Part shown: positions 10,444-39,394 of the stretch, piece by piece
How positions within the stretch are numbered: position 1 is the first letter of the stretch
Layout of the letters: every line of letters starts with the position of its first letter
Source: Blastocatellia bacterium
GTDB lineage: Bacteria > Acidobacteriota > Blastocatellia > Pyrinomonadales > Pyrinomonadaceae
Assembly (NCBI GenBank): GCA_003168335.1
Contig: PMSM01000003.1
Span: 372,001 to 436,000, forward strand
DNA: 64,000 nucleotides
Direction of reading: 5' to 3'
Translations under genes and position numbers: made by a program
The notes under the pieces: generated by a model
Told to the model about the DNA's origin: nothing
Seen by the model: the letters and a program-made list of their open reading frames with translations, nothing else
Database searches by the model: none

Positions 10444-10827
10444 TCACCTCCAAATCTGATAGGCGAGCGCGCGGCTGACCCACACCGCGCCCAGTCCCAG
10501 CAGCACATTCGCCGCGACGTTGGCCATGGCGAGGGTATTCTGCCCGTCGCGCCAAAGGTTCATGGTTTCGTTGCCAAAGGCCGAGAAGGTCGTGAACCCG
10601 CCCAGGATGCCGATAAAAACAAAGGTACGTGATTCAGCGGTGAAGACGCCGCGCGTTTCCGCCAGTTGTGAGAGAAAACCGATGAGGAAGCAGCCGATTA
10701 GATTGACGGCCAGTGTGCCGTAGGGAAAATCTATGCTGCGGCTCAACTGCTGGGCGTATCCCGTCACCGCATAGCGGAGAGTCGAGCCGATGAAACCGCC
10801 CACGCCTGCCAAAAATAATTTGCCCAC
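10444..10827 (-). CDS. crcB: Fluoride ion exporter/channel CrcB (Fluc)
   Basis: The protein has 127 residues, the usual Fluc length, with four predicted membrane helices. Fluc channels are dual-topology dimers that let toxic F- leave the cytoplasm. Family motifs are seen: GGFIGSTLRYAV near the N-terminus, GTLAVNLIGCFLIGF, and GILGGFTTFSAFGNET carrying the conserved GGxTTFS signature. The start is GTG at 10827, placed 8 bases after AGGAG; this SD is part of the riboswitch expression platform immediately upstream. The DUF190 gene follows at once. The operon is predicted to be induced by intracellular fluoride. Confidence 0.95.
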   Translation of the reverse strand: MGKLFLAGVGGFIGSTLRYAVTGYAQQLSRSIDFPYGTLAVNLIGCFLIGFLSQLAETRGVFTAESRTFVFIGILGGFTTFSAFGNETMNLWRDGQNTLAMANVAANVLLGLGAVWVSRALAYQIWR

Positions 10828-10833
10828 GTTACA

Positions 10834-10901
10834 GACTCCTGAGCAGAAAGTTCGTAGGAGTCATCAGCACGCAGGCATTTAATGGCGGACTCCATCGCCC
10901 G
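10834..10901 (-). promoter_or_regulatory. Fluoride riboswitch (crcB motif) with SD-sequestering expression platform
   Basis: Read on the minus strand, GGCGATGGAGTCCGCCA, then TTAAATGCC and GCTGATGACTCCTAC, reproduce the crcB-motif consensus in order and spacing. GGAGTC (10893-10888) can pair with GACTCC (10862-10857) as aptamer stem P1. The same 3' strand GACTCCT (10862-10856) is perfectly complementary to AGGAGTC (10840-10834), which contains the crcB Shine-Dalgarno. The two pairings exclude each other. The simplest reading is translational control: fluoride stabilises P1 and frees the SD. The mechanism is inferred from complementarity; the motif identity is strong. Confidence 0.92.
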
Positions 10902-10906
10902 AAAGA

Positions 10907-10944
10907 TTTTTTTGGAGTGCGGCGACTAGTCAGCGCACTCCAAA
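10907..10944. repeat. TTTGGAGTGCG palindrome
   Basis: A perfect 11-base inverted repeat, TTTGGAGTGCG (10911-10921) and CGCACTCCAAA (10934-10944), directly follows the RNase E/G stop codon and precedes the fluoride riboswitch. Related copies occur at 37110-37171 and 57604-57636. On the minus strand it is not followed by a U-run, so it is not a classical terminator for that gene. Confidence 0.7.
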
Positions 10945-13680
10945 CTAAACAAAAGCAAAATCAAACTGTTCCTGGAGGATACGCGGATCGCTGTTGATAT
11001 CAAGCGTCCCGAGATAGTCTTCGACCTCGTTCAGTACTTCGCGCTCAGGTCCGCGCAAGGCTTTCGCGACTTCCGGATTTATCCGCAGCATCGCCTGTCT
11101 CGAACCTGATTCGCCCTCCCGGGCCAGGCGTCGCGCCTGTTCCAGAATCTCGTAACAGATCGTTTGCGGCGATTTCACCAGGCCCGCTCCCTGGCAATAC
11201 AGGCAGGGCGTGCACAGCGTGCGCTCGAGTGATTGCTTCACGCGCTTGCGCGTCATGATTACCAGGCCAAAGTCGTTAAAGGAAAGGACCTTCGTCGGTG
11301 ATTTGTCATAGTGCAGGGCGTCCTGAAGCGCTGTCATCACACGCTGGCGATTGCGGCGTTCTTCCATGTCGATCAGATCGAGCACGATGATCCCGCCCAG
11401 ATCGCGCAGGCGAATCTGACGCGCGATCTCTTCGACCGCTTCCATGTTGGTGCGAGTGATCGTGTCTTCCAAACGGGTAGCGCCGCGGCCCACGAACTTG
11501 CCCGTGTTCACATCGATCGAAACCAGCGCTTCAGTCTGATTGATGACCAGATAGCCCCCGGATCGAAGCCAAACGCGCGGCTTGATCGCCTTATCAATCT
11601 CGGCCTGTACGCCATAGGCTTCCAGGATCGGTTCGTCTCGTGTGTAGAGTTTGACGCGCTTAACCATGCGCGGCTGCATCCGGTTAACAAACTCGACGAC
11701 GCGCTGGTATTCCTCTTCCGAGTCAATCCGGATGGCGGTGAAGTCTTCAGACAACTGATCGCGCAGGATTCTCTGTACCAGATCCAGATCGCGATGCACC
11801 AGCGCCGGAGCTTTCGCTTTCTCCGCATCGTGTCGCAGGTCCTGCCAGGTGCGCAACAAATATCTCGCGTCTTCGTGCAGGTCAGCTTCGCTGGCGCCGA
11901 CTCCGGCAGTGCGGACGATAAAGCCGCCGGCCGGGGTCTTCTCTTCGACGTGAATTTTTTGAATCAGCTTGCGCAACCGCGTCCGTTCACTATCGGATTC
12001 GATTTTGCGCGAGACGCCGAGGTGTTCGACCGTCGGCATGTAAACCAGAAAACGGCCGGGCAGAGCGATGTGCGAAGTTATCCGCGCGCCTTTCTTGGCG
12101 ATTGGCTCTTTGGCAATCTGGACCAGAATTTCCTGGCCTTCCTTCAAGAGATCGGTAATCGCCGGCTGGGGACCGCGCTCGTGCCGGGCAGGGCGACGAC
12201 CACCACCACGACCTCCTCGGGGAGCTGGTGGACGACGTTCGTCGCGCGGGGCAGCTTCCTGAGTTTCCTTTGCGTCCTGCACCTTGGCAGTCTCTTCTAC
12301 TTCCGCCGCCTGCTCTTCAATCACCGCGGATGACTGAGCCACTGGTTGGGCCGTGGTCTCGGTCTCGGTTTCGCTCGGCTCTTCCGCCGTTCCCTTTTCA
12401 TCAAGTCCGTTAGCACCATCGGCGCCGTTTGCTCCTTCGCCCTCGGTGCCAGGCCGCTTCGACGAGGGCCGCCGCCGCCGCCGCCCGCCTCGCCGGGTAG
12501 CAAATTCTTCGTGCCCGCGCCCCGTGGTGATGCTGGCTTCGGAATTCGGGACAATCTCTTCTGCGATTTCCGCCTCCGCTCCACTTTCAATTTCCGGGTC
12601 GGGGACGTCATCGACCTTTTTGGATTTGAACAAGCGACCGATCACGCTGGTCTTTTTCTTGCGCGGCGTTGGGGTGGCGGCGCTCCGCCGAGCGGGGCGC
12701 TTCTCAACCATTACTGGTTCAACGTCTGGCACTTCAAATTTGGGCGCCGCAACTTCCGGTGTCTCGTCATCACTGACGCGTTCGAACGAAAGACTGCGCG
12801 AGCTTTCCGCGGCGACTTCATCGACGAAATCGCGAACGCGGGCGGCCTCGGGTTCTCGGACGCGCGCGAGTGGCGCGCTGGTGGAATCACCAGAGGCATC
12901 GTCGTCATCAGCGATGCGTTGGAACGAGACGCTATCAGTCAGGCTGCGATCAGACAACAGCGAGCCGCCCGGCGCACTGGGCAAGTCTTCCATGTCGAAT
13001 TCAGCCGCGTGCACTTCATCCATCAGTCGTTCCTGCAGGCGCGCATCTTTGAACATCTCGCCGTTCATAGCGCGTTCTTCATCGTCGCTAATGCGCTCGA
13101 ATGAAGGACCCGGCGTCACGAACGGAGTGTCGATCGGTTCTGCCGGGGTTGGTATTACCCGGCGCGCTTCCGGCGCGTCAGTCCGGGTCGAGCGGCTGCG
13201 CCCGCGTCCGCCGCGACGTCCGCGGCGGCGCGCACCGCCTTCTTCAGTCTCTTCCGGTTTCTCCGCCACTGCGGCGATTTCGGGCTCGGCTTCAGCCAAG
13301 CGCAGAGGCTCAGCGCGCTCTTGCGCGCCTTCGATAGTGTGCTCACGCACGACGCGACTTTGCTCGATGTGTTCGGTGGCGGCGCGGGTGGCCGTCTCGG
13401 GATCGACCTTTTTGGATTTGTCGACGACGATGCGTTCGAACTCGGCTTCCTCGTCAAAAAAATCGGTGACGTAAAGAAACGCATCGCGTTCCAGTCCGAT
13501 ATCCACAAAGGCGGATTGCATGCCGGGCAGGACGCGCATCACGCGCCCTTTATAGATGTTGCCGACGATGCCCTGATTCTGTTCGCCGCGTTCGATGTAG
13601 AACTCAGTTACGCGGTCGTTTTCGACGATCGCGATCTTCTTTTCTTTTCCGTTGACACTAACAATTAACTCTCTTGACAT
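10945..13680 (-). CDS. rng: Ribonuclease E/G family protein with large insertion in the S1 domain
   Basis: The protein has 911 residues. The endoribonuclease core is clear. The first half of the S1 fold is at 37-75 (GNIYKGRVMRVLPGMQSAFV). The second half resumes at about 508 (ITDLLKEGQEILVQIAKEPI), followed by the RNase H-like and DNase I-like regions with RTAGVGAS, RSGGYLVINQTEALVSIDVN and LRDLGGIIVLDLIDM. A Cys-rich Zn-link, CTPCLYCQGAG, lies near residue 830. Between the S1 halves is an insertion of about 430 residues, acidic and disordered-looking, with Arg/Gly patches at 150-165, 396-410 and 488-503. The motif SF(E/Q)R(I/V)(S/A)DD occurs three times, at 193, 252 and 298. In E. coli RNase E the disordered scaffold is C-terminal; here it is internal. 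RNase E versus RNase G naming is uncertain. Confidence 0.9.
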   Translation of the reverse strand: MSRELIVSVNGKEKKIAIVENDRVTEFYIERGEQNQGIVGNIYKGRVMRVLPGMQSAFVDIGLERDAFLYVTDFFDEEAEFERIVVDKSKKVDPETATRAATEHIEQSRVVREHTIEGAQERAEPLRLAEAEPEIAAVAEKPEETEEGGARRRGRRGGRGRSRSTRTDAPEARRVIPTPAEPIDTPFVTPGPSFERISDDEERAMNGEMFKDARLQERLMDEVHAAEFDMEDLPSAPGGSLLSDRSLTDSVSFQRIADDDDASGDSTSAPLARVREPEAARVRDFVDEVAAESSRSLSFERVSDDETPEVAAPKFEVPDVEPVMVEKRPARRSAATPTPRKKKTSVIGRLFKSKKVDDVPDPEIESGAEAEIAEEIVPNSEASITTGRGHEEFATRRGGRRRRRPSSKRPGTEGEGANGADGANGLDEKGTAEEPSETETETTAQPVAQSSAVIEEQAAEVEETAKVQDAKETQEAAPRDERRPPAPRGGRGGGRRPARHERGPQPAITDLLKEGQEILVQIAKEPIAKKGARITSHIALPGRFLVYMPTVEHLGVSRKIESDSERTRLRKLIQKIHVEEKTPAGGFIVRTAGVGASEADLHEDARYLLRTWQDLRHDAEKAKAPALVHRDLDLVQRILRDQLSEDFTAIRIDSEEEYQRVVEFVNRMQPRMVKRVKLYTRDEPILEAYGVQAEIDKAIKPRVWLRSGGYLVINQTEALVSIDVNTGKFVGRGATRLEDTITRTNMEAVEEIARQIRLRDLGGIIVLDLIDMEERRNRQRVMTALQDALHYDKSPTKVLSFNDFGLVIMTRKRVKQSLERTLCTPCLYCQGAGLVKSPQTICYEILEQARRLAREGESGSRQAMLRINPEVAKALRGPEREVLNEVEDYLGTLDINSDPRILQEQFDFAFV

Positions 13681-14399: not shown

Positions 14400-16832
14400 C
14401 TAGCGCGTTACCTCCCTGATCAATTCCTCAAATCTTTTATCCCCACGAATCGAGGCCAGATTGGGATCGTGCTCGAACAGCGGTTTGTTTTCGTTTCCCA
14501 GCGCGACTGAGCGCTGCAGCCATTCGAAAGCGTCGTCGCGTTCGCCTTCCAGGGCATAAACCGATGCGACCGCATACGCGATGTCGGGATCGACGGCAGC
14601 GTTTCGCTTCACATCTTCATTCAGTTCCGCGCGCGCGCCGGCATGTTCGCCCAGCGCGCTCTGGCACATCGCCAGAAATGGCCGCACGCCGTGCAGGTTC
14701 GGATTTTCGGAGAGCACTTCGCGCAACAAATCGCGCGCCGCCTCGATCTGCCCGCTGTAATACATAGTGATTGCCCGGAACATACGCAGCAGCGGATTGT
14801 TCGCTTCCACCGAAGTCGCCCGATCCAATTCGCGCATAGCGTCGGCGGTCTGGCCCTTGTAGAGAAAGATCAGCGCCCGGTTATAGCTGACCACGACGAA
14901 AGCTGCCGGATCCAAATGCACCAGGCGATCGTAACTCCGCAACGCGCGATCGTATTCACCGTCCAGCCGGTGCAGCGTCGCCTTTACAAAATGCACGACG
15001 GCTTCATTAGGCGCTTCGCGGCGCATGCGCCCCACCTCTTCGCGCGCTTTCTGTTTCTGCCCGCGCCAAAGGTATACGAACACCATCAACATGCGTGCTT
15101 CGATGATGTTGCTGTCGATGCTAAGGGCTTTATTGAAAGCTGCTTCAGCGAGGGCATAGTCTTCGGCCCCGCCCAGGCCCTTAAAAACGCGATTCACGTG
15201 ACACGCGCCCAGACCGTCATAAGCCAGGGCGAATTTGGAATCGAGTTCGATCGCGCGATTAAAATGCCGGATGGCTGCGTCGCAATCGGAAGTGGCAACG
15301 GTACGAAAGATAAAGCGCGCAAATCGATCGCGGCCCCTCAGGTATTCTCCGTAAGCCTCGGCGTTGCCCGTGGCGGGCTGGGCCAGCCCCGCTTGTTCGT
15401 CGGGACTCAACTCGAGCCGCAAACCGTCCACGATGCGCTTGGTGATCTCGTCCTGCACCGCGATGATGTCGTTGGCCGAAGCATCGACGCGATCGCTCCA
15501 GATAATTTCGCCGCTCTTTATGTCCAGCAGTTGCGCGTTGACGCGAAAGCGCTCGCCGGCGGCGATGAAGCCCGCTGACAGCACTGCATCTACATTCAAT
15601 TCTCTGCCGACGTCGGCCGGGTCGGCCGGCTGGCCCTGATACTTTGACATTACCGACGACGGACGCACCACCAGCGAGCGAATGCGCGCGAGTTCGGTAA
15701 TCACCGCATCGGCCAAAGAGAATTCGTAAAAGCTCGCCTCGGGATTGTTGCTCAGGTTCCTGAAAGGCAGCACCGCGAGACTCTTCTTCTCGCGGTCGGC
15801 GATCGTGGTCATCGATCCTTCCTGCGGATCGGTTACCTGTTTCGAGGAAAGCTGGGGCGCGCTGGTCGGCGACTCGGCGCTGCTCCCACCGCCTAACTTT
15901 CGCAGCCAGCGCATCGCGCGCGACACCGGGCTGGATCCGCCCAGGTGACGCGGCGCCGTGGCCTCATCAAACTCTGCGCCGCCGGCGACCTCGTGCAGAG
16001 CAGTGCGCAGATCGTCGCGCAGGTCGCCAATTTTTTGATAGCGATTGCGCGGATCTTTCTGTAGCGTCTTGTTCAGAATCTGTTGCAGGCGCGGGGGTGT
16101 CGGGCCGGGTCGCGCTTCTGCCAGGCTTTTCGGCTGATCGTGAAGCACTGCATGGCGCACATCGATGGTTGATTTGCCGCGAAACGGCCACGTCCCGGTC
16201 AACATTTCATAGATCAACACGCCGGTCGAGAAGATATCGCATCGCGCATCGACCCGATCGCCGCGCGCTTGTTCCGGCGCCGCATAAGTCGCCGTGCCAT
16301 ACGGAACTCCTATTTCAGTTAGCTCAGTTTGATGAATCCCTTTGGTGGCGGCCTCGGTTTCGTCCAACAGCTTGGCCAAACCAAAATCCAGAATCTTCAC
16401 CTGGCCAGTGTCTGTGACCATCACGTTGCCGGACTTGATGTCGCGATGAATGATGCCGCGCGCGTGGGCCACCGCGAGCGCATCGGTCACCTGAATCGCG
16501 ATGCGCAGCGCACTCTCGAGTTCCAACGGCCGCCCGTTGACGAGTTGGCGCACGTTCCGGCCTTCGACGTATTGCATCGTGATAAAGTGCAGGCCATCGG
16601 CTTCGTCCATGTCAAAGATGGTGCAGATGTTCGGATGGTCCAGCGACGAAGCCAGGCGCGCTTCACGTTCGAAGCGTTTCAGGTTGGCTTCTTTGACGGT
16701 GAGTTCGGCGGGCAGAACTTTGACGACGACGGTGCGGCCGAGTTTTTGATCGATGGCTTTGTAAACCGTGCCCTGACCGCCGGCGCCGATCTTTTGGGTG
16801 ATTTTGTAGTTGCCGAGGTTCTGGCCGATCAT
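14400..16832 (-). CDS. Serine/threonine protein kinase with TolB-like and TPR regions
   Basis: The protein has 810 residues. A Hanks-type kinase domain occupies about 8-265, with glycine loop IGAGGQGTVYKA, Lys38 in VVVKVLPAEL, catalytic HRDIKSGN and DFGLAK. It appears active. There is no transmembrane helix; instead a linker leads to a TolB-like/adenylate-cyclase-associated segment (about 345-480) with KSLAVLPFRNLSNNPEASFY and GELNVDAV-type motifs (RELNVDAVLSAGF). The last 320 residues are TPR-like helical repeats (for example FALAYDGLGACHVNRVF, AFVVVSYNRALIFLYKGQ). This architecture is frequent in Acidobacteriota. It is probably a cytosolic sensor-kinase that binds partners through TPRs; substrates are unknown. 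It is monocistronic by position. Confidence 0.9.
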   Translation of the reverse strand: MIGQNLGNYKITQKIGAGGQGTVYKAIDQKLGRTVVVKVLPAELTVKEANLKRFEREARLASSLDHPNICTIFDMDEADGLHFITMQYVEGRNVRQLVNGRPLELESALRIAIQVTDALAVAHARGIIHRDIKSGNVMVTDTGQVKILDFGLAKLLDETEAATKGIHQTELTEIGVPYGTATYAAPEQARGDRVDARCDIFSTGVLIYEMLTGTWPFRGKSTIDVRHAVLHDQPKSLAEARPGPTPPRLQQILNKTLQKDPRNRYQKIGDLRDDLRTALHEVAGGAEFDEATAPRHLGGSSPVSRAMRWLRKLGGGSSAESPTSAPQLSSKQVTDPQEGSMTTIADREKKSLAVLPFRNLSNNPEASFYEFSLADAVITELARIRSLVVRPSSVMSKYQGQPADPADVGRELNVDAVLSAGFIAAGERFRVNAQLLDIKSGEIIWSDRVDASANDIIAVQDEITKRIVDGLRLELSPDEQAGLAQPATGNAEAYGEYLRGRDRFARFIFRTVATSDCDAAIRHFNRAIELDSKFALAYDGLGACHVNRVFKGLGGAEDYALAEAAFNKALSIDSNIIEARMLMVFVYLWRGQKQKAREEVGRMRREAPNEAVVHFVKATLHRLDGEYDRALRSYDRLVHLDPAAFVVVSYNRALIFLYKGQTADAMRELDRATSVEANNPLLRMFRAITMYYSGQIEAARDLLREVLSENPNLHGVRPFLAMCQSALGEHAGARAELNEDVKRNAAVDPDIAYAVASVYALEGERDDAFEWLQRSVALGNENKPLFEHDPNLASIRGDKRFEELIREVTR

Positions 16833-37171: not shown

Positions 37172-37252
37172 TGTAACTAACCCAAAGCGCAGCGGATGAG
37201 ACGTTGCGCGCCTGCCCCAGCGGCGGGCGTCGTCAGAAGGAGACGAACGAAA

Positions 37253-39394
37253 ATGACAGTTAAGAAGTATCTCAAGGAGTCAATTCGAGTGGGTGATCGC
37301 GACCTCACCGTGGAAGTTGGTCGGGTGGCCAAACAGGCAGACGGATCCTGTGTGATCCGTTACGGCGACACGATGGTTTTGTGCGCCGCGGTGGGCGCGT
37401 CGACAACCCGCGAGGGCATCGACTTTTTCCCGCTCACCGTGGAATACCGTGAAAATAACTATGCGGCCGGACGCATTCCGGGAAACTATTTTCGGCGTGA
37501 GGGACGGCCCACCGAAAAGGAAGTATTGACCAGCCGCATGATAGATCGGCCCTGCCGTCCATTATTCACTCCGGGTTATCGGAATGAAACCCAGGTCATA
37601 GCGTCAGTAGTCTCGGCCGACCCGGATAACAATCCCGACGTGGTGGCGATCACCGGAGCGTCTTGTGCACTGTATCTTTCAGATATTCCGTTCACCACTC
37701 CGATCGCCGGCGCGCGCATTGGTTTGATAGATGGCCGCTACATCGTCAATCCGACTTACGACGAAATCCGCGAATCGAAACTGAATCTGATTGTAGCTGG
37801 GACGGAAGAAGCGATCGTGATGGTCGAGGCCGGCGCTCAGGAAGTGTCCGAGGCGATCATGGTTGAGGCGTTGATGCTCGCGCATAAAGAGATCAATCGG
37901 CTTTGTCGCTGGCAGAAAGAACTCTATAAAGCTTTGGAGATTCAGAAGCGACCGGTCGAGCCGCCCGTGATAAACGAAGAAGTAATTGCCGAGATCGAGG
38001 GCAAGTATGCCGATCGCTTGCGGGCCGCGCTCGACACTTCAGGCCAGGAGAAGCGGGCGAGTTATGCCGCGATCGATGCGCTGAAGAAGGAAGTAGTAGA
38101 GGGCTATCCCGAGGACCAGCCGGAGTCGCGCGCGACGGCCAAGAAGGCCTTTGACCATCTCAAGGAAAAGATTTTCCGTGACGATATTCTGAACCATCGC
38201 CGCCGGCCGGATGGAAGGCGGTTTTCCGAAATTCGCCCCATTACTTGCGAAGTTGGTTGGCTGCCGCGCACCCACGGCTCGGCACTCTTTACGCGTGGCG
38301 AGACGCAGGCGTTGGTGGTCACGACGCTGGGTACGAAAGAAGACGAGCAGTTCATGGACGATATCGAGAAGGGCGAGGTCAAGCGTCGCTTCCTGCTGCA
38401 TTACAACTTCCCGCACTATTCGGTTGGCGAAGTGGGCCGCTTCGGTTCATCCTCACGCCGCGAAATCGGGCATGGTGCATTGGCGCGGCGGGCCCTTGAG
38501 CCCGCGCTGCCTGACGACACCGTGTTCCCGTACACCATCCGCATCGTCTCGGACATAACGGAATCGAACGGTTCATCGTCGATGGCCAGTGTCTGTGGTG
38601 GAACGTTGTCGCTGATGGATGCCGGTGTGCCGATGAAGGCTCCGGTCGGAGGCGTCGCGATGGGTCTGGTGATGGAAGGAAACAAGTACGCAATCCTGAC
38701 CGACATCGCCGGTGCTGAAGATCATTACGGCGACATGGATTTCAAAGTCACCGGCACGGCCGAGGGAATTACCGCGCTCCAGATGGACATCAAGATCGCC
38801 GGTGTGAATTCACAGATCATGGCCGAAGCTCTCGAGCAGGCCAAGAAGGGACGCCTGTTCATTCTGAATGCAATGCAACAGGCGCTGGCCGAGCCGCGCG
38901 CAGAGATTTCATTGTTGGCGCCGAGAATCATCAAGATCAAGATCAATCCGGATAAGATTCGCGACGTGATTGGACCGGGCGGAAAGGTGATTCGTGCCCT
39001 GGTTGAAGAGACTGGCGCAAAGATCGACGTCGATGACGACGGCACGGTTTCGATTGCGACCGCCGATTCGGCCGCGGCTGAGGCCGCCGTCGCCCGAATT
39101 CGGGCCATTACGGCCGAAGCCGAAGTGGGTCAAACCTATGTCGGCACGGTGAACCGAATCGTGGACTTCGGCGCTTTCGTCGAAATCTTCCCCGGCACTG
39201 ACGGACTGCTGCACATCTCGGAAATCGCCGACCGTCGCATCCGCGACGTACGTGACGAGCTCCGTGAGGGTCAGCAGATCATGGTCAAATGTATCGGCAA
39301 GGACGGCAACAAGATTAAGTTGTCCCGGAAGGCCGTGCTGAAGGACGAGAACCAGCAGGGTGGCGAAGCCCCGAGTGCTGAGGAAGAAAACTAA
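37253..39394 (+). CDS. pnp: Polyribonucleotide nucleotidyltransferase (PNPase)
   Basis: The protein has 713 residues from ATG 37253, which has AGGAG at good spacing; an ATG 57 bases earlier would add an Arg-rich stretch not seen in PNPases. It has two RNase PH-like domains (first with YGDTMVLCAAVGAS, second with RTHGSALFTRGETQAL and the catalytic GSSSRREIGHGALARRALEP region), an all-helical linker, KH (IRDVIGPGGKVIRALVEETG) and S1 (GQTYVGTVNRIVDFGAFVEI). It degrades RNA 3'-5' by phosphorolysis, a degradosome partner of RNase E in many bacteria. Confidence 0.97.
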   Translation: MTVKKYLKESIRVGDRDLTVEVGRVAKQADGSCVIRYGDTMVLCAAVGASTTREGIDFFPLTVEYRENNYAAGRIPGNYFRREGRPTEKEVLTSRMIDRPCRPLFTPGYRNETQVIASVVSADPDNNPDVVAITGASCALYLSDIPFTTPIAGARIGLIDGRYIVNPTYDEIRESKLNLIVAGTEEAIVMVEAGAQEVSEAIMVEALMLAHKEINRLCRWQKELYKALEIQKRPVEPPVINEEVIAEIEGKYADRLRAALDTSGQEKRASYAAIDALKKEVVEGYPEDQPESRATAKKAFDHLKEKIFRDDILNHRRRPDGRRFSEIRPITCEVGWLPRTHGSALFTRGETQALVVTTLGTKEDEQFMDDIEKGEVKRRFLLHYNFPHYSVGEVGRFGSSSRREIGHGALARRALEPALPDDTVFPYTIRIVSDITESNGSSSMASVCGGTLSLMDAGVPMKAPVGGVAMGLVMEGNKYAILTDIAGAEDHYGDMDFKVTGTAEGITALQMDIKIAGVNSQIMAEALEQAKKGRLFILNAMQQALAEPRAEISLLAPRIIKIKINPDKIRDVIGPGGKVIRALVEETGAKIDVDDDGTVSIATADSAAAEAAVARIRAITAEAEVGQTYVGTVNRIVDFGAFVEIFPGTDGLLHISEIADRRIRDVRDELREGQQIMVKCIGKDGNKIKLSRKAVLKDENQQGGEAPSAEEEN

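Follow-up and report, generated by a model that had tools for sequence, protein, structure and literature searches.

A class-specific module of paired FxR[IV]xD[DE] motifs in the disordered S1-domain insertion of Blastocatellia RNase E and its probable role in protein docking

RNase E organises RNA decay in many bacteria, and the scaffold it provides is known mainly from Proteobacteria, as a C-terminal tail. Here we analyse a stretch of 64,000 nucleotides from a Blastocatellia bacterium (assembly GCA_003168335.1, contig PMSM01000003.1, positions 372,001 to 436,000; hereafter the window), in which an endoribonuclease of the RNase E/G family, P0001, carries a long disordered insertion within its S1 domain. 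An initial annotation, made from the sequence alone, had noticed three copies of a short motif, SF(E/Q)R(I/V)xDD, in this insertion and had read them as short linear motifs, possibly a multivalent docking array for one partner. We find that copies 1 and 2 form the two ends of a single conserved module, which also contains a predicted helix and a VGSL element, and that copy 3 is a lineage-specific addition. The features concerned are as follows, in window coordinates, with ratios of nonsynonymous to synonymous proportions (pN/pS) where computed:

10945-13680, minus strand: gene of the RNase E/G family endoribonuclease P0001, 911 amino acids (Pfam, NCBIfam and PDB matches)
12160-13461, minus strand: disordered insertion in the S1 domain, about 434 residues (74-507) (Escherichia coli alignment, AlphaFold2 (AF2) confidence, charge blocks)
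12901-13104, minus strand: conserved module of about 68 residues (193-260), in the order motif 1, helix, VGSL, motif 2 (alignment, profile searches)
13078-13104, minus strand: motif copy 1, SFERISDDE, residues 193-201 (pN/pS 0.10)
12997-13083, minus strand: predicted acidic helix, ...GEMFKDARLQERLMDEVHAAEF, residues 200-228 (AF2, both models)
12958-12969, minus strand: VGSL element, GGSL in P0001, residues 238-241 (conserved column block)
12901-12927, minus strand: motif copy 2, SFQRIADDD, residues 252-260 (pN/pS 0.19)
12763-12789, minus strand: motif copy 3, SFERVSDDE, residues 298-306 (pN/pS 0.08), lineage-specific
13420-13443, minus strand: near-copy EFERIVVD, residues 80-87, at the S1 edge where the insert starts (resembles the motif)

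Residues 540-814 of P0001 match the Pfam family RNase_E_G (E=7.6e-100; 334 bits against a cut-off of 25.5), the protein scores 483 with TIGR00757 (cut-off 326), and searches of the PDB return E. coli RNase E structures at E values of about 1e-77; structural comparison of the full model with Foldseek returns RNase E and the related FAU-1/RNase W at E<=0.001, with weaker rows beyond. Because residues 1-72 of the E. coli chain align to P0001 residues 1-73, and E. coli residues 79-463 only to residues 497-887, we read residues ~74-507 as a single large insertion that splits the S1 domain, itself preceding the catalytic domain, at a site where E. coli RNase E has a few residues only. The full-length AF2 model (a monomer from 38 sequences, with a mean predicted local distance difference test score (pLDDT) of 61.9 and a predicted template modelling score (pTM) of 0.41) has a good core over much of its length and helices where the insert begins (75-88, 94-123), and its pLDDT falls below 50 at residues 125-201, 229-434 and 436-503. 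Acidic and basic blocks alternate along the insert, with a fraction of charged residues of 0.38; Trp and Tyr are absent, and 5 of its 13 Phe fall in the motifs and helix. In having a long disordered, non-catalytic region with conserved motifs P0001 resembles a degradosome scaffold, sited here inside the S1 domain and not at the C-terminus.

The three nonapeptides lie on the minus strand where the initial annotation had placed them, 59 and 46 residues apart. Since their surroundings are compositionally biased, chance resemblance in low-complexity sequence is the plainest alternative; however, among 20,000 shuffles of the insert 19,981 held no match to F[EQ]R[IV]x[DE][DE], 19 held one and none held two, and the orthologue conservation and selection described below are likewise contrary, refuting chance for copies 1 and 2 and leaving it a negligible probability overall. 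Recent DNA duplication is rejected as the origin of copy 1, because 7 of its 9 codons differ from copy 2, and as many from copy 3, and because DNA likeness among the copies spans only about 26 nucleotides (85% and 73% to copy 3). Between copies 2 and 3, 4 codons of the 9 differ, every one with an amino-acid change, and their five common residues have identical codons throughout; a common DNA origin of these two is possible. A back-translated form of the motif, with arginine restricted to CGN codons, gave six hits in the whole genome and none in the reversed control. Three of the six are the present copies; the others lie, apparently in folded regions, in proteins that by their sequence look DUF3341/ActD-like, acylase-like and FecR-like. 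With this one pattern, then, the motif was not found to be common to other proteins of the genome.

A search for RNase E/G in 60 genomes, the window's own included, found it in 58; together with 80 named loci these yielded 138 protein frames, 101 of them with a complete insert by the patterns used and the other 37 excluded from the counts of bare motif, near-copy and individual copies (genomes and loci are given below by G and L numbers; L098, L149 and L107 are probably the same genomes as G002, G018 and G042, and not independent). The bare motif F[EQ]R[IV]x[DE][DE] is carried by all 6 inserts from the genus and all 23 from the family (taken to be Pyrinomonadaceae), by 13 of the 21 from the remaining families of the class and by 8 of the 51 from named loci, against 0.00-0.03 matches per set in shuffled inserts. 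Five of the eight loci (L099, L100, L101, L102, L104, L106, L107 and L149) are labelled Pyrinomonas, Pyrinomonadaceae or Blastocatellia, and three only Acidobacteria or Acidobacteriota. Looser patterns laid around the helix recover copy 1 in 6/6 genus, 22/23 family and 11/21 other class inserts, and copy 2 in 6/6, 22/23 and 12/21; copy 3 is present in 6/6, 11/23 and 0/21. The comparison with orthologues, in which absence or displacement of the motif would have counted against the initial annotation, came out in favour of copies 1 and 2: all 29 inserts of genus and family and 13 of the 21 from elsewhere in the class carry it, in a steady place relative to the helix and VGSL. Their reading as short linear motifs is therefore well supported. 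The proposed array stands in part: conserved motifs in a disordered background are present, but they are not simply three equivalent sites, as copy number differs among inserts, copies 1 and 2 enclose a single module and copy 3 is restricted to a lineage.

The consensus of the module reads FxR[IV]xD[DE], then G[ED]M[FL]KDAxxQExI...EF, then VGSL, then FxR[IV]xD[DE]. Nine columns (R4, D7, G15, K19, D20, Q24, E35, R63 and D66) are invariant in a 26-row alignment, the rows of which were picked for having the module, so that its conservation columns describe proteins chosen by the module pattern; the helix residues K211 and E227 are invariant in 17 class proteins. Profiles for the class, phylum and cross-family searches were built from module-bearing members, and the profile hidden Markov model (HMM) for the cross-family search was trained on modules of the own genus and family only. 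This family-trained HMM recovered the module at E<1e-5 in 15 of the 23 proteins that represent the other class families, the best shuffled insert reaching 0.22; G051, G055, G039 and G040 scored from 0.0009 to 0.04, and G043, G047, G056 (a truncated frame) and G059 did not rise above shuffles. At E<=0.001 the module profile matched 147 of 162 class genomes (111 of the 119 from the own family and 36 of the other 43), and 95 of the 101 genomes that are at least 90% complete. Across the phylum 43 of 396 genomes matched: all 28 of the own family (genus and own genome included; in G323 the match covers positions 29-67 only) and 15 further genomes of the class, four of whose members were unmatched. 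None of the 349 sampled genomes of other classes of the phylum, a figure deduced by comparing the genome lists of the phylum and class searches, gave a match. All 30 matches fetched from the phylum search lie in an RNase E frame, and in the own genome the profile found no second module above noise. Within the phylum sampled the module is specific to the class Blastocatellia and, where checked, to RNase E.

Selection was gauged from the 15 pairs among six genus genomes (G002, with a truncated start, was excluded). Taken together, the motifs have a pN/pS of 0.12, close to the 0.10 of the catalytic core and far below the 0.44 of the remaining insert, and so are conserved well above their disordered background; the helix (residues 205-229) gives 0.07, VGSL (236-242) 0.09 and the whole module 0.17. 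Because synonymous divergence in the motifs is near saturation (pS 0.83, against 0.60 in the core; dN/dS is not computable there), there is no sign of constraint from an antisense ORF or an RNA element, and a search of Rfam at gathering thresholds found nothing in the RNase gene, its only match being a fluoride riboswitch outside. Constraint on the motifs at the DNA, RNA or antisense level is set aside on these grounds. Motif 1, helix, VGSL and motif 2 are one unit under amino-acid selection.

A regulatory alternative is that the Ser before F and the S-D-D-E run are targets of a kinase or of an FHA domain. In P0001 itself SFERxSDDE resembles an acidic kinase site, and a large adjoining ORF (14400-16832) reads by eye as a Ser/Thr kinase. 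Yet many orthologues have Gly, Asp, Gln, Asn, Pro or another residue in place of the Ser, and DD is preceded by V, I, A, T or others, whereas F, R, I/V and D are mostly retained; we regard phosphorylation as a very improbable explanation.

The helix at residues 200-228 is predicted with moderate confidence (block pLDDT about 58-84) in both AF2 models, the second of which, a monomer of residues 185-312 from 12 sequences (pTM 0.26), contains this same helix alone. A Pfam scan of 26 modules gave no significant match (eight families, each in one member, best E=0.012), nor did a profile search of the PDB with the module (best E=0.8, a saposin); these searches thus assign the module to no known fold or family. 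A membrane-binding role of its helix is unlikely, given a net charge of -3 and a hydrophobic moment of 0.16.

The full-length monomer gives the module no confident placement on the RNase body, which touches on a further alternative: an intramolecular switch, in which the acidic motifs and the helix would pack against the enzyme itself, at the S1 or 5'-sensor surface or at arginine-rich blocks of the insert, and control the entry of RNA. Such a switch would suit an insertion that sits in an RNA-binding S1 domain and alternates acidic with basic blocks, and an EFERIVVD-like segment stands at the S1 edge in 26 of 29 genus and family inserts ([FI]ERI[VM] in 6 of 6 and 20 of 23, respectively). This near-copy does not, however, extend to other families of the class (0 of 21), where the module persists, and the model shows no confident contact, with pLDDT in the insert mostly about 30, although monomers would miss contacts made in a tetramer. 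We judge the switch unlikely. Several Terriglobia inserts have a similar EEYDKIV or EDFDKV at the near-copy site.

Further features of the insert, and one gene elsewhere in the window, are as follows:

13180-13233, minus strand: basic block ARRRGRRGGRGRSRSTRT, residues 150-167, ahead of the module (charge profile)
12805-12849, minus strand: conserved segment EAARVRDFVDEVAAE, residues 278-292, ahead of copy 3, in part of the family only (alignments)
12466-12540, minus strand: basic patch EASI...EFATRRGGRRRRRP, residues 381-405 (A382 and R400 invariant in 17 class proteins)
37196-39394, plus strand: PNPase gene, candidate partner (TIGR03591, 1006 bits against a cut-off of 525; ORF)

An arrangement of this kind, with conserved short motifs flanking a helix in disordered and arginine-rich RNase E sequence, is typical of degradosome docking sites. 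On balance we favour the view that the three motifs are part of a protein-docking module in the disordered S1-domain insertion of Blastocatellia RNase E; that the module docks some protein partner seems quite probable. The insertion would be the degradosome scaffold of Blastocatellia, placed inside the S1 domain in lieu of a C-terminal tail. Several weak contacts would join the partner to the helix and the F-x-R-[IV]-x-D-[DE] hooks as these fold onto it, with Phe and Ile/Val as buried anchors and the conserved Arg and acidic pair forming salt bridges, while the flanking arginine-rich blocks would hold RNA. Among the latter the EASI...EFATRRGGRRRRRP patch, which has a pN/pS of 0.29 (residues 376-410), is probably an RNA-binding arginine-rich motif.

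The composition of the insert also fits an alternative without a foreign partner, in which a charge-patterned sequence scaffolds RNA bodies as in Caulobacter and the hydrophobic hooks are stickers for homotypic contacts between RNase E molecules. As a rule homotypic stickers need no set order of elements with invariant residues, and the module has just that: motif, helix, VGSL and motif follow one another in a fixed order, and K, R, E and D positions are invariant. Blocky charge, the charged fraction and lack of aromatic residues other than Phe noted above, and the share of Phe in motifs and helix accord with stickers, as does the involvement of arginine-rich charge blocks in condensates of Caulobacter RNase E; those droplets, on the other hand, do not need the PNPase docking motif (PMC10412687). 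We hold this alternative to be quite unlikely.

Known RNase E systems give the docking interpretation its nearest parallels. E. coli RNase E binds PNPase through a pair of like motifs, separated by 44 residues and each containing a key Arg, which contact two protomers of one PNPase trimer and raise the affinity from micromolar to low nanomolar (PMC12489471). This PNPase-binding region (residues 1005-1061, beta1/beta2) resembles the present module in its paired short Arg motifs within disordered sequence of the same enzyme, and its binding is multidentate (PMC12489471); it differs in lying near the C-terminus and not in an S1 loop, and its beta motifs are described as His followed by Pro and charged residues, against FxR[IV]xD[DE] here. 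In Pseudomonas aeruginosa RNase E a helix serves for PNPase binding (PMC12489471), and separate short motifs are reported for PNPase and RhlB (PMC11964227). The Pseudomonas and other gamma-proteobacterial motifs (MTS, REER, AR1, AR4 and NDPR; the microdomains of Ait-Bara et al.) likewise combine conserved motifs in a fast-evolving disordered scaffold with arginine-rich RNA-binding motifs (PMC11964227, PMC4435900), but are C-terminal, of other sequence and from other bacteria. The RNase E of alpha-proteobacteria, too, has an S1-domain insertion; it is ~50 amino acids long, against ~434 here, and no module is described for it in the relevant passage of PMC5436854.

Because a helix and two hooks 59 residues apart, with a third 46 further on, would suit a multimeric partner, PNPase comes to mind: hooks about 50 residues apart could, by analogy with E. 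coli, grip neighbouring subunits. Genes for PNPase and for a DEAD-family helicase are both present in the own genome, and PNPase was found in 36 of 36 genomes searched, the own included. We name the PNPase trimer, tentatively, as the likeliest single partner. Its residues in the window are numbered from the start at 37253, and the E. coli contacts were mapped through the 3cdi chain after removal of a 6-residue offset to the 7ogk chain; relative to the chain, the letters Asp and Glu at 320 and 322 are reversed in the paper, its Glu199 is Asp, and its His522 does not fit that number, neither of the possible places being class-distinguishing. Among 30 Blastocatellia and 24 Terriglobia PNPases, position 323 is Arg in 27 of the former against Ala in 21 of the latter, and position 325 is Ser in 24 against Asp in 22; class-distinguishing positions make up two of the ten reported contacts (p=0.048). 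We treat this class difference at the docking strand as a lead, not as support.

Several results weigh against the docking interpretation, or against PNPase as the partner. The acidic residues 320, 322 and 328 of E. coli PNPase are R323, S325 and T331 in the window's protein, so that the E. coli contact could not be copied as such; with these partner residues replaced, and motif sequences that are unlike by eye, the module is not a PNPase-binding motif of the E. coli type. Class-distinguishing PNPase positions show no overall clustering (p=0.63), which makes the co-evolution test weak and partly negative. The motifs themselves fall below a pLDDT of 50 in the full AF2 model. Fifteen of the 162 class genomes have no module match and some others match weakly (outside the family, for example, at 1.6e-4 to 8.3e-4). 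Among the fifteen, G009 and G035 gave no RNase E/G match and G007 only a cut frame; G039, G040, G043, G047 and G059 have RNase E with near-misses of the module, and of these G043, G047 and G059, with complete inserts, retain only a degenerate form.

The RNase E of Terriglobia offers a comparison within the phylum. The Terriglobia set comprised L108-L147, L152, L159, L166, L167 and L171, taken by locus number; most are labelled as Terriglobia groups, L132 as Pyrinomonadaceae and several only as Acidobacteria. As in Blastocatellia, the S1 inserts are of comparable length, with arginine-rich patches and one conserved motif; unlike them, they lack the FERIxDD module, no locus exceeding shuffled inserts with the family-trained HMM. 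Their motif, LPGE[ST][LI] (mostly LPGESLxKY or LPGESIxKY), occurs in 41 of 45 of these mostly Terriglobia loci, or 40 of 42 with the S1 start in frame, and in none of 58 proteins of the own genome and its relatives. It is missing from L117 and L137, with frames that include the S1 part, and from the fragments L120 and L132, which lack that part. LPGE[ST][LI]xKY is a candidate for a second class-specific docking motif. With Terriglobia inserts comparably long but carrying LPGE[ST][LI], the two classes seem to share the S1 insertion as a site for the scaffold, each with motifs of its own. A bolder and rather doubtful extension would place the scaffold inside the RNA-binding S1 domain throughout Acidobacteriota, where partner docking might directly gate RNA access to the active site, and where class-own docking codes (FERIxDD-helix-VGSL-FERIxDD in Blastocatellia, LPGESLxKY in Terriglobia) might be recognised by surfaces that have co-evolved on a shared partner, for example PNPase.

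The present case thus places a scaffold-like region inside the S1 domain, in a major soil phylum, with class-specific module motifs conserved nearly as strongly as the catalytic core. The 68-residue module and its invariant residues provide a precise bait for finding the partner, and Blastocatellia and Terriglobia form a natural comparison for the evolution of docking codes. Among the papers listed for RNase E with Acidobacteriota, degradosome or S1-domain insertion we found no report of the module, although the 2015 review by Ait-Bara and Carpousis (Mol Microbiol) may mention the insertion; a table in PMC3071783 gives 511 amino acids for RNase E of the Fibrobacteres/Acidobacteria group, with no complex marked there.

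Some minor observations concern the same gene, its relatives and its surroundings. A short basic segment of the insert, KKKTSVIGRLFKSKK (residues 341-355; 12616-12660, minus strand), has a net charge of +7 and close counterparts in six aligned genus proteins; membrane or RNA contact is possible. G020 has, besides its full-length copy, a second RNase E/G fragment (L068, G020:C63:1-1800, a 359-amino-acid frame at the contig start), and G528 has two module-bearing frames on two contigs, each of more than 1000 amino acids, where the other 146 matching class genomes have one; these second copies are either paralogues or the result of mixed assemblies. Directly after the RNase gene, at 10848-10908 on the minus strand, lies the fluoride riboswitch (Rfam RF01734, 48.7 bits), which stands upstream of an ORF (10444-10827) that by eye is CrcB-like.

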